From Leptolyngbya boryana PCC 6306 (lineage in GTDB: Bacteria; Cyanobacteriota; Cyanobacteriia; Leptolyngbyales; Leptolyngbyaceae), in NCBI RefSeq assembly GCF_000353285.1, contig NZ_KB731324.1:2498577-2562576 (forward strand): 64,000 nucleotides of DNA, in the 5' to 3' direction. The notes beneath the pieces were generated by a model. That model saw only the letters and a list, made by a program, of their open reading frames with translations. It searched no databases and had not been told where the DNA came from. Below are positions 7,779 through 64,000 of the stretch, in pieces (position 1 is the first letter of the stretch; the number at the start of each line of letters is the position of its first letter). Made by a program: the position numbers and the translations under genes.

Positions 7779-9144
7779 GAATAAATGCAGTTTGATCGAT
7801 CTGACTTGAATCCAGTTTGAGATCCCCATGATGCGCTCGCACAATCTCGCGCGCCAAACTCAAGCCCAATCCAATCCCTTCGACTTTGCGAGTTCGAGCC
7901 GGATCACCACGATGAAACCGATCAAAAATGCGATCGCGATCCTGTACTGGAATCCCTTTAGAAGCATTCGCGATCGTCACTTGAATGGCAGTCTGACTTT
8001 GCCTGGCTCGAATCCGAATCCACCCCTTTTCAAGGTTGTACTTAATCGCATTACTTAAGAGATTCTGCAACACTTGTTTGAGCAAATCACGATCGCCTTG
8101 AACACTTAACCCCGGAGCAATATCAGACTGCACAGTCAAATGTGGTGCTAATAGCTCAATGTCTTCTAGCATTTCAAACAACAGTTCGGACAAATTCACT
8201 TTCACGCGATACAAGCTCATCTGCCCCGCATCAGCTAGGGAAAGTAAAAGTAACTTTCGCATGATGCTACTGAGTCGGCGTACCTCATCTAGTAAGCTAC
8301 TTAATCGCTGCTGTACTTCTGAGCCAGGTTCTACTTGCTGAAGCGATCGCTCTAATTCCCCTTGTAAAATTGTCAACGGAGTTTTGAGTTCATGAGCGGC
8401 ATCTGCACTAAATCGAGAGGCTTGCAGAAAGCTCCGCTCCAACCGTTCTAGCATTTGGTTAAAGACTTGAATCAGTTGCACAAATTCAACATCAGTTGTG
8501 CCGATGGGAATGCGTTGATCGAGTCCCGTGACAGTGACTTTCTGAATCACGCCCGTTAATTGTCGAACGGGACGAAGCGCCCGACCTGCGACAATCCACG
8601 CACCCCCTGCGACGAGAAGTAACATGCCTGGAATTGAGATCAGAAAGATATTGCGAATCCCGTCCATTTCTTGATCGATCGCGTGTAAGTTGATTGCGAT
8701 CGCGACTTGAGTCTCTGGAAAGTTAAGCGCTCCGATTCGCCAAGTTCCTGTTGGCGTTTGTCCAGTCACAAGCTGCGGGCGAGGTGGAATCGGTCGAATG
8801 GGTGGGAGTTCTCGTCTAGAAGGCGCAGGTGGCGCAAGCTGAAGATTCCGCCGTAGGAGTTGCTCTAATTTCTGATCGGACAACGCCGCACTTTGATAAC
8901 GTACGTTCCCTTCTGAATCGAGCACTAACAGTCCTATGTTTGGATCATCTTCTAAGAAGCGTTGTTCACGATCGCGCGGGCGGCTAGCTCGCATCAGTTG
9001 ATTCAGCAAATCCGCATCTAATCGATTCACTTTCGCGTTGTAAATCTGTATCCAAGAGATTGCCCCAAATCCAAGCAGTGCGATGCCTGCAAGGGTCGCT
9101 GAGAGTAACGCAATCCGCAGTCGGAAAGAACGCATTCTCATCAT
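7747..9144 (-). CDS. membrane sensor histidine kinase (HAMP-HisKA-HATPase)
   Basis: A 465-residue classical sensor kinase. One N-terminal transmembrane helix (about 8-30), a periplasmic sensing region of about 130 residues rich in Pro and Arg, a second helix (about 170-190), HAMP (about 190-245), an H-box with AAHELKTPLT (about 255), an N-box NLLSNAIKYN and a G-box GIGLGLSLA. It autophosphorylates on His and passes the phosphate to the regulator encoded just upstream; the ATG overlaps that gene's TGA (ATGA). Similar to copper/nickel-type sensors of the OmpR class, but no metal-binding motif stands out, so the signal is unknown. Confidence 0.92.
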   Translation of the reverse strand: MMRMRSFRLRIALLSATLAGIALLGFGAISWIQIYNAKVNRLDADLLNQLMRASRPRDREQRFLEDDPNIGLLVLDSEGNVRYQSAALSDQKLEQLLRRNLQLAPPAPSRRELPPIRPIPPRPQLVTGQTPTGTWRIGALNFPETQVAIAINLHAIDQEMDGIRNIFLISIPGMLLLVAGGAWIVAGRALRPVRQLTGVIQKVTVTGLDQRIPIGTTDVEFVQLIQVFNQMLERLERSFLQASRFSADAAHELKTPLTILQGELERSLQQVEPGSEVQQRLSSLLDEVRRLSSIMRKLLLLSLADAGQMSLYRVKVNLSELLFEMLEDIELLAPHLTVQSDIAPGLSVQGDRDLLKQVLQNLLSNAIKYNLEKGWIRIRARQSQTAIQVTIANASKGIPVQDRDRIFDRFHRGDPARTRKVEGIGLGLSLAREIVRAHHGDLKLDSSQIDQTAFILTLPKTASRP

Positions 9145-13589: not shown

Positions 13590-15131
13590 TTACCGATTGA
13601 CTCGCAACCAAATTTCTAAAGTCACGAGTAACCACAGTTTCAATCCGTAGCGATGCCAGACTTGTCCGCGATAGTCGAGCCAATCTTTGACGATCGCTTG
13701 ATTGATATACGGTGCAATTTCAGCCTTGCGGTCTAACAATAATGCTCTCGCTCGTCGTCGCCAAATGTTGCGAAACCATTGCTGCATCGACATGATCATG
13801 CCGCTTTTCGGACGATTCACAATCACATCGGGAAGCAAATCTGCCACTGCTGCTTTCAATACGGCTTTTTCTTCTGCTCCTGCCAGTTTGTACTGGGGCG
13901 GAATCTGTAAGCTCAGTTCCACCATGCGCGGATCAAACAACGGCGATCGACCTGTAATTCCCGCTGCTGCGGTTAACGCATTAACTTTGGTCAAAATGTA
14001 ATCCGCACCTTTGAACTTAAGATTGAGCAACATCAATCGATTTAAATAAGCCACAGGTGCATTCAGATCCGATTCAAACACCGAAGGAGCTTGTGCGATC
14101 GCGGCATAAACCTCCGGCTTCAACAAGGTCGGCAAGTCTGAAAAACATTTTTGAAACGAAGTCAGATAAGCCTCAACATCACGTTTACTCCCACCAGAGC
14201 CATAAAGCTGATTTAACAACATTGGCTTATTCTTCGGACCCGCGAAACAGGGATCGCCGCCTTCTCCATTCAGCACGACATTCACCGATTCTTTCGCCGC
14301 GCGCGCCAGTACCAAATTTGGAACGGTCAGCCCTTCCCCAATCGGATCATCCAAACTTGCTAACGTTTCCGGTAACATCTGCCAAATCATCTCTGGCGAA
14401 ATCTCTAAAATATGATGCTGAGTGTGACAATGTTTGGCGACGAGATTGGCAAACTCTAACTCACTGGGATACGGTGCGCCAAAGTGAATCGAGTACGTAT
14501 GCACCGCTCGATCGTGTAATTTTGCAGCAAGTGCCGTCACACAGCTTGAATCAATCCCACCCGAAAGAAATGCCCCAACTGGCTCTCCCGACGGCAACAT
14601 TTCCTCAATTAAGCCTTCGAGCAGCGATCGTACTTTTTGCCCATGCCATTCGAGCGATGCATCTAGGTTGTGAATTTGCTCTTGCGGCGACCAATAAATC
14701 GTTTCTTCTTGAAAATTCCGATACGTTCCGGGTCGTACCTCGCGCACCTGCTGCCACAAGGTCTGAGATCCAGGCACAAAGGCACAAGAAAGATAATCTC
14801 GCAGTGCGACTAAATCCAACTCACGCGAATGATAAGCATTCAGCGATCGCAATCTCGGCGAAATCCAGCGAGTTTCACCAGTTCGCGTGTAGTAAAGCGT
14901 CTTCTGACCCACACGATCGCGAATCATCCAAATTTGTTGAAGTTGGCGATCCCAGACGACAAAGGTTTTATCAAGCCGATCGAGCGATTCAAATCCTGTC
15001 CATTCGCACTCTTCACCGATCACGACATAACGTTCACCAACCGAAAAAGCTGCATCGACGATCGCAATTCCCGCTTCTTTCCAAGTGGCTTGAACCGACT
15101 CAACGTTCCCAACTGCGATCGTCCACGACAT
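13590..15131 (-). CDS. asparagine-synthase-related protein lacking the glutaminase Cys
   Basis: A 513-residue member of the asparagine synthase superfamily. The C-terminal synthase domain has the PP-loop LSGGIDSSCV (about residue 190) that adenylates a carboxylate. The N-terminal Ntn-glutaminase half is reduced, and position 2 is Ser, not the nucleophilic Cys (MSWTIAVG). The usual GEGADELF motif reads GEGGDPCF. It therefore probably cannot hydrolyse glutamine and may be an ammonia-dependent or amide-forming enzyme with another substrate. No biosynthetic cluster adjoins it; the substrate is unknown. Confidence 0.82.
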   Translation of the reverse strand: MSWTIAVGNVESVQATWKEAGIAIVDAAFSVGERYVVIGEECEWTGFESLDRLDKTFVVWDRQLQQIWMIRDRVGQKTLYYTRTGETRWISPRLRSLNAYHSRELDLVALRDYLSCAFVPGSQTLWQQVREVRPGTYRNFQEETIYWSPQEQIHNLDASLEWHGQKVRSLLEGLIEEMLPSGEPVGAFLSGGIDSSCVTALAAKLHDRAVHTYSIHFGAPYPSELEFANLVAKHCHTQHHILEISPEMIWQMLPETLASLDDPIGEGLTVPNLVLARAAKESVNVVLNGEGGDPCFAGPKNKPMLLNQLYGSGGSKRDVEAYLTSFQKCFSDLPTLLKPEVYAAIAQAPSVFESDLNAPVAYLNRLMLLNLKFKGADYILTKVNALTAAAGITGRSPLFDPRMVELSLQIPPQYKLAGAEEKAVLKAAVADLLPDVIVNRPKSGMIMSMQQWFRNIWRRRARALLLDRKAEIAPYINQAIVKDWLDYRGQVWHRYGLKLWLLVTLEIWLRVNR

Positions 15132-59464: not shown

Positions 59465-59661
59465 TTCCTAAAGTTCCTTAGATTTGGGCTTTGAGCATTT
59501 ACCCAGGTTTTTCTAAGGTTATCTTTCCCATGCCGAAATGAATCTTCACTATCTCCAAGCAAGAAATTTCATGCACGATTCAACGAATGCTGACGATTCA
59601 GCCTACCAGAATCTGATTGATGGGCTAAATTCCTAGATTGGGAAATTGATAGAGTGATCTA

Positions 59662-59716
59662 CGGGACTGACGGGGCTCGAACCCGCAACTTCCGCCGTGA
59701 CAGGGCGGTGCTCTAA
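59662..59716 (-). tRNA. 3' fragment of tRNA-Asp(GUC); probable attachment site
   Basis: On the minus strand, TTAGAGC, the anticodon stem CCGCC-CTGTCAC-GGCGG (anticodon GTC at 59699-59701), the T arm GCGGGTTCGAGCCCCG and the acceptor end TCAGTCCCG match tRNA-Asp. The acceptor 5' strand and D arm are absent: upstream (higher coordinates) the sequence is unrelated. It is not a working gene but the chromosomal 3' remnant left by integration of an element into tRNA-Asp; the restored gene should lie at the far end of the element. Confidence 0.82.
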
Positions 59717-59801
59717 ATGGCTCTAGGATTTTTGTGATAAGCCTTTCACCCCTTATTTGTCTTCAACCTGTTCGGATTTAGGACAGATTTAGGACAGGTT
59801 C

Positions 59802-60905
59802 ATGAGAAGCATAAAGCCAATTAATAATCACGGGGGAATTCAATTAAAATTTTCTATCGCTGGAAAGCGTTATAGTTTTCACCCGATTCCAGGGGGGCAA
59901 TTCGCAGACAGAAGAGATCTGGCAACTGCCCAAGCGATCGCCACGCGAATCGAGAATGCCCTTTTATCGGGGCATTTCGATCACACTCTACAAAGTTATC
60001 GACTTGCCCCTAAAACGGCTGCATCTGACCCTTCACCCGTTCTATACGGCTTAATGTTGGAATTATGGGACGCTTGGGTAAATACCCTGAGTCTCTCTGA
60101 AGAAACCAAAGCAGATCACTATGAAATGATCCGCCGCATGATCGCCAAACACTCCCCCCTGGTAACTCAAACCGATTGGTTAACCAGTGCCAAAATTGCC
60201 CCTTCCACTTTTAACAAGCGCTTAGGGTATCTCAAATCCTGCTTCAAATGGGCAATGAGCCAGGGGGGTGTAGAGAATGACCCTATGCAAGCCATCAAGA
60301 CAAGGAAAGTCACTAAACCCGAAATCAAACCCTTTTCTGCCAGGGAAATGACTCGGATTCTTCAGAGCTTCGAGCAGATTTGCCCACACTACACCCCCTT
60401 CGTCCGTTTTCTATTCCTTACAGGTTGCCGAATTAGTGAAGCGATCGGCTTGCAATGGCTCCATGTGGACTTTGAACAGAAACTTATAACCGTCTCAGAG
60501 TCCTTATCCATCGATCGAACGGGCAACGGCTATAAACGCAAGCGAAAATCCACTAAAACTGGGAATGTCCGATTACTGCCGTTCAACACCCCCCTGGAAA
60601 TCCTACTGAATCATCTAAAATCCTCAAGTTGCCAGGGGGGAGATTTAATTTTCACTACAGTGAAAGGATGTGTCATTGATGCAGGAAATTTCAGAACTCA
60701 ATATTGGATGAAGGCGCTAGAACATGCTCAAGTCCCTTATCGGAAGATTCACACATCTCGACATACCACAGCCAGTTACGCAATTTATGAAGGGATTCCA
60801 ATAACTGCGATCGCTTACCTTCTGGGTCACAAAGATCCCCGAATGGTCATGCAAACCTATGGGCACTTGATCAATAAACCGGATCTACCTGACATGCCCA
60901 TCTGA
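59802..60905 (+). CDS. int: tyrosine recombinase / integrase
   Basis: A 367-residue integrase. The N-terminal half holds a SAM-like arm and core-binding region (about 85-180). The catalytic domain has Arg in FLTGCRISEAIGLQW, His and Arg in HTSRHTTASY, His in LGHKDPRM, and the nucleophile Tyr in MQTYGHL. It lies 86 bp from the tRNA-Asp fragment, as expected for the enzyme that integrated the element there. Four CCCCCTGG-type octamers lie within or just after its coding sequence. Confidence 0.94.
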   Translation: MRSIKPINNHGGIQLKFSIAGKRYSFHPIPGGQFADRRDLATAQAIATRIENALLSGHFDHTLQSYRLAPKTAASDPSPVLYGLMLELWDAWVNTLSLSEETKADHYEMIRRMIAKHSPLVTQTDWLTSAKIAPSTFNKRLGYLKSCFKWAMSQGGVENDPMQAIKTRKVTKPEIKPFSAREMTRILQSFEQICPHYTPFVRFLFLTGCRISEAIGLQWLHVDFEQKLITVSESLSIDRTGNGYKRKRKSTKTGNVRLLPFNTPLEILLNHLKSSSCQGGDLIFTTVKGCVIDAGNFRTQYWMKALEHAQVPYRKIHTSRHTTASYAIYEGIPITAIAYLLGHKDPRMVMQTYGHLINKPDLPDMPI

Positions 60906-60989
60906 TCCCCCTGGAACCTGTTGAGAACCCTTGAACTATTCCAGGGGTGATAATCAGAAAGTGACTTTTAGCAAACCCCCTGGAAACTC

Positions 60990-61289
60990 CTAATTTCCCC
61001 TCACAACTTCTTGAAATCGGCTGATCGCATTTAAGTAAATCCCTGGGTCATTCTGGGATTTGGCAATCTGCCACATTGAGAGCATGTAACGGTTAAAGAC
61101 GATCGCGCCCATCTCGGAAGTTTGGAAGTAGACAACACCCTTTAACCATCTCCACTCATCCTGATCTCTCTGTTGGCGACTCATGAAGCTCTGAAGGGTT
61201 GGTTTTGCCCATCCTAGAAGCTTTGCAGCCTCATCTAAAGAAATCTGCTGACAAACATTTTCTAGGAGTAAAGTTGATTTCTTAGGCAT
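60990..61289 (-). CDS. small helix-turn-helix protein, possible excisionase or repressor
   Basis: A 99-residue protein. Residues about 16-40 (ISLDEAAKLLGWAKPTLQSF) look like a helix-turn-helix as found in excisionases and small repressors; the rest is Trp-rich and helical. Position after the integrase and divergent from the next gene suits a regulator or recombination directionality factor. The call is inference; no named family was recognised. Confidence 0.6.
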   Translation of the reverse strand: MPKKSTLLLENVCQQISLDEAAKLLGWAKPTLQSFMSRQQRDQDEWRWLKGVVYFQTSEMGAIVFNRYMLSMWQIAKSQNDPGIYLNAISRFQEVVRGN

Positions 61290-61318
61290 CTTGGGTTTAC
61301 CTCAGAATCATTCAGTCA

Positions 61319-61439
61319 AATCAGATTACATTAGAAACCCATAAAATCAATCAGATTCATACAAAATCTTACAAAACAAAGTAACGCTATTTTGATTATC
61401 AAATTAACTACTTTTGAACACGCATAAAAATACTTTTGA
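61319..61439. promoter_or_regulatory. direct-repeat region between divergent regulators
   Basis: AATCAGATT occurs at 61319-61327 and 61349-61357, and TACTTTTGA at 61409-61417 and 61431-61439 (22-bp period). The AT-rich stretch separates the HTH gene and the ribbon-helix-helix-like gene, so the repeats may be operators for one or both. Confidence 0.4.
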
Positions 61440-61463
61440 GATCTCTAAAACCTTCTCTATAAT
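61436..61463 (+). promoter_or_regulatory. sigma70-type promoter of the RHH-like gene
   Basis: TTGAGA at 61436-61441 and TATAAT at 61458-61463 with a 16-bp spacer, 23 bp before the start codon. The -35 box overlaps the second TACTTTTGA repeat, which would suit repression. Confidence 0.65.
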
Positions 61464-61486
61464 TGATCTAGAGAATTCCTAGACAA

Positions 61487-61813
61487 ATGCGTGATATCCA
61501 GCTAGCAACTTTCGAGATTAACTTTGAAACTTGGCAAGAATTCAAAGACAAAGCTTCTCAAAATCATCGGAGTGCTTCATCAGTGCTTCGAGAATTTGTA
61601 GATGCTTATCTCCAAGGTGATTCACATTCTAGAAGCGTCTCAGACAGTGATGAGGATTTGGTGAATCTGATCCAGGGGATGATCCGAGAGTCTTGCAGCG
61701 ATCGCATAGATGCCCTTGAAAATCGCGTAGATGCGAATGAGAAAGTCTTAGGTCAACTTGGAGATAAATTCGTAAAAATTTTGAATGTTTTGAAGATAAC
61801 TAGAGGAGCCTGA
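61487..61813 (+). CDS. ribbon-helix-helix-like protein with coiled-coil tail
   Basis: A 108-residue protein. Residues about 3-42 (IQLATFEINFETWQEFKDKA, then SASSVLREFVDAYL) read like a ribbon-helix-helix DNA-binding unit. About 60-100 is charged and heptad-like, probably a coiled coil. The stop is 2 nt before the next ATG, so the two genes are coupled. An autoregulator is plausible given the operator-like repeats upstream. Confidence 0.6.
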   Translation: MRDIQLATFEINFETWQEFKDKASQNHRSASSVLREFVDAYLQGDSHSRSVSDSDEDLVNLIQGMIRESCSDRIDALENRVDANEKVLGQLGDKFVKILNVLKITRGA

Positions 61814-61815
61814 AA

Positions 61816-62196
61816 ATGCTTGGAGCCGTTCGATCAACTGTACCCGTTTCAACCGCAACTACACCCCCCTGGATCACTGCTAATCTCCAAAACGGTTGGA
61901 CTAGCTTTACCGATCAAAACACCGTGTATCCCCCTGTGTCCTACCGAAAACACCTAAACGGTATGGTTGAGCTTCAAGGGATGGCTACTAAAAATTCTCC
62001 AGGGGGTTCAAACGTTCTTCTAAACCTACCTGGAGAATTTCGCCCGAATGTCGCAAAACGCTTTCCGGGATCTGATCCGAATCCCTTCTCACTCATCATT
62101 TATCCATCAGGGGATCTACAGTTAACCTATCTCACCGCAACCATATCGAGCATTGCTTTTATCCCCCTGGATGTGATCCAATTCTTTGCAAATTAA
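61816..62196 (+). CDS. phage tail-fibre/receptor-domain-like protein
   Basis: A 126-residue protein. The order NLQNGWTSF, YRKHLNGMVELQGMA, VLLNLPGEFRPN, then LIIYPSGDLQL matches the small beta-domain commonly found at the ends of phage tail-fibre and baseplate proteins. No tail, capsid or terminase gene accompanies it, and it has no signal peptide. It has its own AGAGGAG ribosome-binding site and is coupled to the RHH-like gene. It may be a remnant or an independent adhesion module. Confidence 0.65.
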   Translation: MLGAVRSTVPVSTATTPPWITANLQNGWTSFTDQNTVYPPVSYRKHLNGMVELQGMATKNSPGGSNVLLNLPGEFRPNVAKRFPGSDPNPFSLIIYPSGDLQLTYLTATISSIAFIPLDVIQFFAN

Positions 62197-62252
62197 TCAA
62201 AGCTCAAAAAACCGGAAAAGCTAACTGCGGAAGAGTTACAAGCAATTAAAAC

Positions 62253-62287
62253 AACCCCCTGGAACTCTTAGAAGGTTCCAGGGGGTT
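62253..62287. terminator. perfect 13-bp hairpin built from two CCCCCTGG octamers
   Basis: AACCCCCTGGAAC (62253-62265) and GTTCCAGGGGGTT (62275-62287) are perfect reverse complements with a 9-nt loop. The hairpin lies between the convergent tail-like gene and the unknown gene and probably terminates both, although T-runs are short. Confidence 0.7.
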
Positions 62288-62293
62288 AAAGTA

Positions 62294-63073
62294 TCAAGCA
62301 CCCTTTGGGTGAATCGTCAGATCCAAGGGTTTACCTCTCAGTTTTCTGTTGATGCCCTCTTGAGCGATCGCAACCATTTCTAGAAGTCCCGAATCATCAA
62401 ATCTTGCAAGCCATAAGTAACCGTCTAAATCGCTTCTACCGAGTGCTCTAAAAGCTTCTAGGAGGTTCTTACGGCAAAGCTCGGGATCACCATCACCACT
62501 CCAACCGAGAGCAGTTGAAATTAGTCCGCTTGCAACCCCCCAACTATTCAGAGTTTTGCCTTGAATGCCACTTGCCAGGGGGTGCATAAAAATTGTGGAT
62601 CGATCGACTCCAACCCCCTGGAAATTCTCAACCACTTTAATGGGTGAGTCAGAACTTGGAAAAAACTCCAGTACGGCACAAGCCCCGACAGTGAGATATA
62701 CACCACTATCCGAGACTCTTACAGCATTCTCTAAGGGCACTTTGAGGGATGTCAGCCGCTCTGCTAGTAGCGTCCCTAAAGCGTGTTGATAGTGCTTCTG
62801 AATGCCCCGATTGATATGCTTGAGAATCTTTTGAATGAGTGCTGGGTGTGCTTCGGTATGTTGGAGCAACCAAATTCCACAGTAGCGATCGCCAAACTCA
62901 TGAATCACTTTTTGGGCAACCTGTAGAGCTTGAGCAAAGTCCTTACGTTTTGCAACTCGCTGAAAGTGGTTGTTGATCCGGCTTAGAAGTTTTATGCCAG
63001 CAGGCTTAAGGGCTTTCTCGAATTTTTGATTATCTTGCTTCATCTTTTTAGGGGGTGTTGCGAGTGTTTTCAT
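62294..63073 (-). CDS. unknown 259-aa element protein
   Basis: A 259-residue protein I do not recognise. The N-terminal half is basic and helical (KKMKQDNQKFEKALKPAGIK; HQ/K-rich to about 100). The second half looks like a mixed fold (SDSGVYLTVGACAVLEFFP, ALGWSGDGDPELCRKNLLEA). No membrane segment, no signal peptide, no catalytic motif that I can name. It begins at ATG 63073 and ends just before the hairpin. Two octamers lie inside the coding sequence. Confidence 0.65.
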   Translation of the reverse strand: MKTLATPPKKMKQDNQKFEKALKPAGIKLLSRINNHFQRVAKRKDFAQALQVAQKVIHEFGDRYCGIWLLQHTEAHPALIQKILKHINRGIQKHYQHALGTLLAERLTSLKVPLENAVRVSDSGVYLTVGACAVLEFFPSSDSPIKVVENFQGVGVDRSTIFMHPLASGIQGKTLNSWGVASGLISTALGWSGDGDPELCRKNLLEAFRALGRSDLDGYLWLARFDDSGLLEMVAIAQEGINRKLRGKPLDLTIHPKGA

Positions 63074-63244
63074 GGGGTTTTGGTGATTCGCTAGTACGCG
63101 ATTATGAACGAGTTTTCAAGGGTTTCAGAGGTTTAGAGGTTGTCACTAAATGATCTGAATTTTCAAAACCCCCCTGGAGCACTTTGGAGCAATTGTGAAA
63201 GCTCGAAAGCATTGAGGGGATTTCACTTTTGATCGTTTGACCAT

Positions 63245-64000
63245 CTAGAAAATCTCTGGGAGCACTACATTAGTTTTGATAGAGGCTCCATAGTGTTCGT
63301 AGATCATCTTGATCGATGTGCGGGTCATCTTAGCGATCGTTGCGGGGTCTTCTCCCTGACTCAGCCAAAAACTAATCAGAGTAGATCGAGTACTGTAGGG
63401 TTTCCGGTACTCGATTTTTGCTTTTCTGAGGATCACTATCCAAGATTCGCGGAACGTCTGATCGCTAATTTCAGACCCTTGACGACTTGAGGGGAATACC
63501 AGGGGGTTATCAGAGCATCTTGAGAGTTTTCGACGCTTTAAGACTGCTTGTAGGTTGTTTGGTATGTTTATCCATCCGGTCTTGTCATTCTTTGTTGTGG
63601 GGCTAGTTTCACCCCTGGAGAATGACTTATGAAAGTGAATACGATCGCAATCTTCTGAAAGATCATCCCAGGTTAAACAAGCCACTTCACCAAACCTTGC
63701 ACCCGTCCCCAAAAGCACCTTCACTAAATCGGCATAGAACGAATAATAGGGGTCACTTTGGTAAGTTGCGATGACTACAGGGATCTCTTCAGGGGTCAAG
63801 GGTTTTGGCTGAGACTTTTGTTTTTTGATCGTTCTACTCGCACGTTTCCAGGGGTTTGATTTGAGGATCTTCTCATCTTCTGCCCAACTCCAACAGCTTG
63901 AGAGGATTTGTAATCGTTCTTTGATAGTCACGTTAGACAGGGGCAACCCCCTGGAGTTCTTCAGAGTCTTCAGCCAATCTCGAAACTTTGCAGCGGTTTC
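63245..64000 (-). CDS. second tyrosine recombinase, 5' end beyond the window
   Basis: The frame stays open from 63245 to the right edge (at least 251 residues), so the N-terminus is missing. Visible: a core-binding region (SNVTIKERLQILSSCWSW), the first catalytic Arg in GTGARFGEVACLTW, a second Arg in YSTRSTLISF, and the nucleophile Tyr in MIYEHYG. The usual His of HxxR is Ser and the GH motif is replaced, as in some cyanobacterial integrases. It may come from a second element or resolve the first. Confidence 0.88.
   Translation of the reverse strand, partial: ETAAKFRDWLKTLKNSRGLPLSNVTIKERLQILSSCWSWAEDEKILKSNPWKRASRTIKKQKSQPKPLTPEEIPVVIATYQSDPYYSFYADLVKVLLGTGARFGEVACLTWDDLSEDCDRIHFHKSFSRGETSPTTKNDKTGWINIPNNLQAVLKRRKLSRCSDNPLVFPSSRQGSEISDQTFRESWIVILRKAKIEYRKPYSTRSTLISFWLSQGEDPATIAKMTRTSIKMIYEHYGASIKTNVVLPEIF

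Follow-up and report, generated by a model that had tools for sequence, protein, structure and literature searches.

What distinguishes the last few kilobases of a 64,000-nucleotide stretch of the Leptolyngbya boryana PCC 6306 genome (contig NZ_KB731324.1, positions 2,498,577 to 2,562,576; referred to as the window), where one eight-base word recurs many times, and what might read such a word? A preliminary description, made from the letters alone, had noted 17 copies of the octamer CCCCCTGG in 4.2 kb and had proposed a mark belonging to some element. We find that the last 4.3 kb of the window are the left end of an element integrated at a tRNA-Asp gene, whose DNA carries, both in and between genes, a purine/pyrimidine (R/Y) wave with a period of 10.5 bp, and that CCCCCTGG is a directional site riding on this wave, made up of a fixed 8-bp core and approximately four helical turns on the 3' side. 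In the literature that we searched, with few subscription papers within reach, we found no description of the CCCCCTGG octamer, nor of any mobile element with an R/Y wave.

An octamer array bounded by attachment sites

The 17 copies are exact and all have the positions and orientations first reported, on the forward strand at 60155-60162, 60590-60597, 60907-60914, 60976-60983, 61865-61872, 62163-62170, 62255-62262, 62614-62621, 63170-63177 and 63947-63954, and on the reverse strand at 59889-59896, 60260-60267, 60632-60639, 61999-62006, 62278-62285, 62575-62582 and 63499-63506. They extend over window positions 59889 to 63954 with no copy before 59889, as had been claimed for the first 59.6 kb. 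Dinucleotide shuffles of the whole window yield a mean of 0.55 and a maximum of 4 copies, and 17 were reached in 0 of 100; the over-representation is confirmed, with the mean of 0.55 for the whole window to be set beside an original chance estimate of 0.13 in 4.2 kb.

These copies are, moreover, only the left part of a larger array. Coordinates beyond the window refer to the element region L031, for which the window coordinate equals the L031 coordinate plus 57423. A 59-bp direct repeat is found at L031 2235-2293 (window 59658-59716, reverse strand) and, in an identical copy 15,874 bp to the right, at L031 18109-18167. The right copy lies within an intact tRNA-Asp gene (L031 18112-18187), the left copy being the 3' part of tRNA-Asp, and the two attachment (att) sites delimit an element of 15,874 bp with its right att ∼11.5 kb past the window end. 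All 54 octamers of the region fall inside, spanning 15.3 kb from the first copy in the window to a last one ∼11.2 kb beyond it. The host genome (7.26 Mb, 5 contigs) contains 109 copies, 54 of them packed into 0.2% of its length at a density of 3.4 per kb and 55 elsewhere; 38 pieces of the same genome (732 kb) hold 8, or 1.1 per 100 kb, and the word is ∼300 to 450 times sparser in the rest of the genome than in the element. The chromosome does not, then, have a comparable density, and the octamer is element-specific in the sense originally suggested.

A signal at the level of nucleotides had also been proposed, with copies in coding and non-coding DNA, in different frames and in both orientations, and this is what is observed. 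There are 28 forward and 26 reverse copies; 28 are within the 15 called open reading frames (ORFs; 2.6 per kb) and 26 between them (5.2 per kb), and all six frame/strand classes are represented, if unevenly (10, 7, 6, 2, 2, 1). Ten coding sequences include 25 octamers, as compared with a mean of 1.6 and a maximum of 5 in 200 synonymous-codon shuffles. Near matches occur as described (ACCCCTGG 7 times and TCCCCTGG 3 times in the element), of 65 occurrences of CCCCCT 54 continue with GG, and CCCCCA is rare (6). At the five octamer sites within the integrase gene int1 an alignment of five homologues shows no peptide insertion, with a one-residue gap in one homologue at one site, so that the octamers there arose by substitution. 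A reading as a dispersed repeat (REP/MITE) was dropped on the basis of these five sites of the 54. Past about +13 the flanks share weak preferences, mainly for R or Y. Four inverted octamer pairs are strong predicted RNA hairpins (-25 to -29 kcal/mol, z -3.5 to -5.1). Three of the four have a 23-bp spacing, two of these being located between convergent genes; the pair in the window (62255-62285, left arm 62255-62262 and right arm 62278-62285), between convergent genes, has a predicted 14-bp stem as RNA (-25.9 kcal/mol, z -5.1).

The likeness to HIP1 (GCGATCGC) that had been pointed out holds in part. HIP1 and the alternate HIPs of cyanobacteria are over-represented short words of coding and non-coding DNA (PMC4390886), and the octamer resembles them in density and in its indifference to frame; HIP1 is, however, palindromic, genome-wide and linked to a methyltransferase, whereas the octamer is asymmetric (not self-complementary), confined by att sites and extended helically on its 3' side. 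One might imagine that a methyltransferase of the host or the element, together with linked repair, creates and keeps the octamer, the more so as cyanobacteria with HIP1 or substitute words have a putative matching methyltransferase (PMC4390886). Against this, CCTGG outside the octamers is found at host density (22 in 15.8 kb of the element and 91 in 59.6 kb of the host), which also disfavours the CCTGG methylation suggested earlier; no methyltransferase match was obtained among the element ORFs searched (17 with Pfam, 10 with PHROGs, 7 with PADLOC; the host genome was not searched); and the array stops at att. Such a mark seems to us quite improbable. What survives of the original proposal is a signal at the nucleotide level, bounded by the element and with a density like that of HIP1.

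Both words are present in the element, HIP1 with 11 sites in 15.8 kb, to be compared with 62 sites in the 59.6 kb of host DNA in the window. Among 58 cyanobacterial genomes, most have CCCCCTGG at a level well above a reversed control that is possibly depleted for reasons of its own, with a maximum of 1488 copies (G042).

A helical purine/pyrimidine wave

The wave score used here, a measure devised for this analysis, weights the R/Y autocorrelation with a damped cosine of a chosen period and sums it. For the element it is 1.006 at 10.5 bp, falling to 0.19 at 9 and 0.22 at 12, and the underlying autocorrelation is -0.085 at lag 5, 0.086 at lag 10 and 0.066 at lag 21. The 38 pieces of the host genome have a mean score of 0.028 (sd 0.041) and a maximum of 0.165. 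In windows of one kb 11 of the 15 from the element exceed 0.45, the 99% point of 732 host windows, for which the maximum is 0.61. The wave drops sharply at the right att and climbs more gradually from the left att; its left part occupies 59717-64000 of the window and its end is near the right att, ∼11.5 kb farther on. Coherence reappears at 250-340 bp.

The wave is not simply a shadow of the octamers, nor are the octamers a product of the wave. After masking 60 bp around every octamer the score is still 0.79. Given the R/Y string of the element, 1.0 octamer is expected (maximum 3 in 200), far below the 54 seen, and the word is thus a second layer.

Could the wave be an artefact of coding for amphipathic helices or coiled coils, or of decayed dispersed repeats? 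A coiled-coil-like gene does account for the signal of one candidate, L257, which was rejected as a wave element; a helical-repeat-like gene is located in the left flank, scoring 0.36, of the element L446 discussed below; and L331 19000-21053 of Dulcicalothrix desertica, with an R/Y periodicity of 1.3 at 11.5 bp and perhaps a coiled-coil or repeat gene, may be a further case. For the present element, however, the wave is strongest between genes (1.21, with a Markov maximum of 0.40), which already contradicts an origin in coding, and within genes synonymous shuffles lower it from 0.872 to 0.362 ± 0.035 (maximum 0.445 of 200). Periodicity of A or T (W) is missing, the W score being 0.02 at 10.5 bp, which speaks against tandem duplication, and the int1 octamers are without insertions. 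Such an artefact is scarcely credible here.

The missing W periodicity bears as well on a role in chromatin architecture, in which a nucleoid protein, placed by wave and octamers, would silence the integrated element or insulate it. That the wave stops near both att sites would fit, and a periodic 'structural code' (AT2) with ∼11-bp periodicity, strong in two transposons, has been described in cyanobacteria together with transposon curvature (PMC4132750). The published signal is based on AT tracts and concerns transposase genes, however, whereas here R/Y varies without W (tracts as such were not scored) over a whole tRNA-integrated element that has an anchoring octamer. We think this explanation unlikely.

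One-sided extension of the octamer

Alignment of the 54 sites reveals what the octamer adds to the wave. Directly 3' of the 8-bp core there is mostly A, then A or G, and the 3' side alternates with a period near 10 bp: R at +8/9, Y at +11 to 13, R at +16 to 18, Y at +21 to 24, R at +27 to 29, Y at +31 to 34 and R at +37 to 39. The wave amplitude is 0.214 downstream and 0.058 upstream, the 99% point for random places being 0.069, and in 5000 random arm swaps the difference between the two sides was never reached. The asymmetry persists (0.170 vs 0.062) for the 40 octamers that have no other copy in the next 60 bp downstream. Other YYYYRRRR anchors give ∼0.10 with both sides alike, and chromosomal octamers (the first 19 listed of 55) have an amplitude of 0.034, that is, no wave. 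Downstream amplitudes are 0.289 for intergenic sites and 0.127 for sites in genes. The octamer, then, anchors about four turns of wave on its 3' side. This bears further on a HIP-like mark, as the 11 HIP1 sites of the element anchor no wave (0.053) and a methyl mark would leave 40 bp of one-sided wave unexplained.

The nearest published architecture is the uptake signal sequence (USS) of Haemophilus and other Pasteurellaceae, which likewise consists of a core with 3' motifs about one helical turn apart and did not arise by insertion (PMC1626085). The octamer might be selected by uptake or transfer: a type IV pilus, helper capsid or other machine would prefer DNA in which the core is followed by 3' motifs at helical spacing, and the words would accumulate by molecular drive. 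Helical-turn preferences on the 3' side are indeed present, but in R/Y over four turns, unlike the AT-rich USS flanks. The USS is furthermore a chromosomal signal of about 1 per kb (PMC1626085); the octamer, at more than three times that density, belongs to a single mobile element, through which a background wave extends far from any octamer, and the host chromosome is not enriched, so that there is no uptake bias of the host on its own DNA. We judge selection by uptake or transfer to be unlikely. A polar recombination or translocation mark resembling Chi or KOPS would account for the length of the word and for its directional extension, but the 28:26 orientation amounts to no strand bias and the wave would go unexplained; this is very improbable.

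Other elements

Wave scores were calculated for a large set of loci, among them 49 of 80 genome loci (without the 31 loci L341-L371), 6 of 28 viral loci (without the 22 loci L378-L399) and 42 of the 43 places with a VapE gene. Three further att-bounded elements have the same kind of helical wave with other words; they were picked from the many loci viewed and their number is no rate. L277 (genome G046) is 9,879 bp long with a 55-bp att; its score is 0.84, with the peak at 11.5 bp, and that of its right flank is 0.06. L307 (Nostoc parmelioides FACHB-3921) has 8,138 bp at tRNA-Cys, a 51-bp att and a score of 0.57 at 10.5 bp (flanks 0.00 and 0.01), and L446 (genome G293), also at tRNA-Cys, has 9,998 bp, a 33-bp att and a score of 0.62 at 10 bp (right flank -0.06). 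Markov maxima for the three are 0.23-0.27. Coding waves exceed those after synonymous shuffling, at 0.798 vs 0.494 (maximum 0.596) for L277, 0.462 vs 0.291 (0.388) for L307 and 0.567 vs 0.322 (0.447) for L446, and the intergenic wave is 0.84 in L307 and 0.80 in L446. In L446 the wave is weak (0.18) from ∼7.2 to 9.1 kb, a stretch that includes transposase-like ORFs (8158-9011, named by eye), with 0.88 at 10 bp to the left and 0.59 to the right; it is only possible that this stretch serves as an internal control.

Weaker waves are found in L258 (0.36-0.42) and L273 (0.45 at 11 bp). For 188 other loci of at least 4 kb the mean is 0.03 and the maximum 0.37, the high scorers being mostly broad. A 4.2-kb viral contig, L150, peaks at 0.63 at 11 bp, and L458 10000-13000, in a G104 contig with a VapE place, has three one-kb windows at 0.6-0.7. 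A search of 339 genomes with the L307 VapE protein (E 1e-30) returned four matches, of which the present element and those of G046 and G293 have the wave and that of G341 does not. Three of the four wave elements share a protein of 213-215 residues of unknown family (L307 12642-13289, L446 6325-6972, L277 7231-7872; 26-31% identical). The 215-residue L307 protein had no match in 194 relatives, and its predicted model has a pLDDT of 66. A label of small-terminase-like, given by eye to a protein of L307, L446 and L277, was dropped, there being no Pfam match, no PHROG match for two copies and a model pLDDT of 55.

On the conditions that the preliminary description set for its own refutation the outcome is mixed: the chromosome is far sparser in octamers than the element, but homologous elements do not share the array. 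The elements with related integrases (49-57% identical; L200, L258, L273, L274, L277) have 0 or 1 copy each and no array; single copies of CCCCCTGG are found in L258 (7793) and L446 (5823), and the L307 locus also has one. Hairpin-pattern scans found no comparable array among the matches listed from at least 120 viral-contig stretches and 21 with a stricter pattern, and none in 386 genomes, five of which, the present one included, had a match; the largest number elsewhere in these scans, 15 copies, came from 11.9 kb of a GC-rich contig for which 6 would be expected. At several other VapE loci there are also octamers in excess, but they lie in clusters, as iterons would.

What the wave-bearing elements have instead are words of their own. 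In L307 there are 28 copies of ACCCCT in the element and one elsewhere in the locus, with wave amplitudes of 0.132 downstream and 0.072 upstream (99% point for random places 0.091), a hint that this word anchors the wave and the sole such sign in another element. L277 has 21 copies of CCCGGG and 18 of GGATCC, 0.9 being expected for each. The palindromes CCCGGG, GGATCC and CCTAGG are highly enriched in L277 1339-11272, whereas mobile DNA often does the opposite and avoids restriction sites. In L307, AGGTAACC is clustered, with 11 of 12 copies within 14084-14339.

A possible function

The pattern suggests DNA whose form is adapted to being wrapped or bent. From the observed pattern we infer, tentatively and with less than even confidence, that the octamer is recognised directionally by an apparatus that wraps or bends the DNA of the excised element. 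A protein would bind the core, and the wave on the 3' side would let ∼40 bp bend or wrap in one direction from it, with the remaining wave serving the same wrapping along the entire element. The likely occasion would be the excised, replicating form, which might in this way be compacted, protected or packaged (the last perhaps by a helper phage), and a different binding partner would explain why other elements of this kind have core words of their own. A broader claim, that there is a class of cyanobacterial mobile elements whose whole DNA, including the genes, is written in an R/Y helical code read by a putative wrapping machine, with an element-specific directional octamer as loading site, strikes us as rather unlikely; it would amount to a bacterial counterpart of nucleosome positioning, restricted to selfish DNA.

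A considerable body of evidence weighs against this interpretation. Predicted curvature from roll and tilt is raised, at 20.1 deg per 52 bp vs 14.9 ± 0.3 for Markov sequences and 14.2 ± 0.5 for the host, but bending from roll alone is raised only modestly (10.5 vs 8.7) and YR steps in the element show no phasing; bending is consequently not certain, the pattern being compatible with it and no proof. After synonymous shuffling approximately 40% of the wave in coding DNA is still there and goes with the choice of amino acids; the larger part does not. No wrapping protein was identified. The wave came to light after many loci had been viewed and with a score of our own making.

Most of the related loci viewed are also without the wave. 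Among the 42 VapE places examined (194 genomes) a strong wave occurs only in the present element and in L277; of the five closest relatives of int1, L277 is strong, L258 and L273 are weak, and no clear wave is seen in L200 or L274, whose integrases share 56% and 53% identity with int1. The coding wave of L258 lies inside its synonymous shuffles (0.496, maximum 0.519). Loci with close integrases from named genomes and virus contigs (L292-L301, L303, L372-L374; some genomes repeated) are weak overall, at most ∼0.3 where a spectrum is available, with single one-kb windows up to 0.9. Phage P4, which is a small-capsid satellite, phage S-LBS1 and four cyanobacterial VapE plasmids have no wave, unlike the element. 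BLAST of L031 against L277 or L307 gives only integrase and VapE as common parts. Nor do the words of other elements behave uniformly: CCCCTA in L307 is nearly symmetrical (0.142, 0.119), none of six L277 words tested anchors a downstream wave, and for CCCTAG in L277 the wave is stronger upstream (0.144 vs 0.062). In the present element, ACCCCT outside the octamers has the same amplitude on either side (0.085, 0.085), less than the 99% point. Finally, the drop of the L446 wave precedes the transposase-like ORFs and partly recovers within them. The weakness of this internal control, and the L277 words without anchoring, have slightly lowered our confidence in a wrapping apparatus and in the broader class. 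The interpretation given at the outset, a mark of the element, is partly supported.

To our knowledge there is no agreed function for helical periodicity in prokaryotic sequences. According to one survey large phages are generally without the curvature-related kind (PMC3431218), and according to another some lytic phages have periodic dinucleotides (PMC7537859). Here a small bounded element has an R/Y periodicity far above that of its host, with an anchor word that is defined and oriented, and there are three further att-bounded cases; this turns what reads such a pattern into a testable question on 16 kb of DNA. It also illustrates that a mobile element can have a HIP-like word all to itself.

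Genes of the element

The tRNA 3'-end repeat at both borders, a tyrosine integrase at one end and a replication gene of its own are those of a tRNA-integrated mobile element, and from its gene content the element looks like a satellite or an integrated plasmid. It resembles phage satellites and tRNA-integrated islands with a tyrosine integrase and a VapE or P4-alpha-like primase in gene set, clustered repeats and tRNA att. Adjoining the left att is int1 (59802-60905, forward strand; 367 residues; Pfam PF00589, E 3.9e-19; PHROG integrase), followed by an ORF of 99 residues without a Pfam or PHROG family (60990-61289, reverse), an Arc-like ribbon-helix-helix (RHH) repressor of 108 residues (61487-61813, forward; phrog_6506, E 1.3e-4) and an ORF of 126 residues with 3 octamers (61816-62196, forward) that resembles the C-terminal part of phage minor tail proteins (phrog_3285, E 3.6e-8) and is the only link to a helper phage among the genes. 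An ORF of 259 residues with 2 octamers (62294-63073, reverse) has no Pfam or PHROG family and one weak PADLOC cyclase match (E 0.0017); neither it nor a 363-residue ORF had a match in plasmids. A second tyrosine recombinase of 373 residues (63245-64000, reverse; PF00589, E 6.2e-10) extends beyond the window and has 2 octamers in its visible part.

Further genes encode RHH proteins, a 1050-residue Prim-Pol/PriCT/VapE protein and weak HNH and DnaJ matches. Downstream of VapE, outside the window, GCTACCCC repeats are clustered (11 of 12 copies in L031 13209-13510) and are probably replication iterons; the wave anchored at these 12 copies is slight (0.049 and 0.084). One RHH protein (L031 8918-9232), perhaps a candidate for what reads the pattern, has a basic tail that by eye may be likened to an AT-hook. 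The 114 bp directly after the last octamer (L031 17790-17903) are 90% identical to G001:C10:59678-59791 from the same genus, a locus without octamers, and two adjacent arrays of 11-bp tandem repeats, GGAGCTTGTTC and CACCGAACACA, are found at L031 7233-7320 and 7374-7444.

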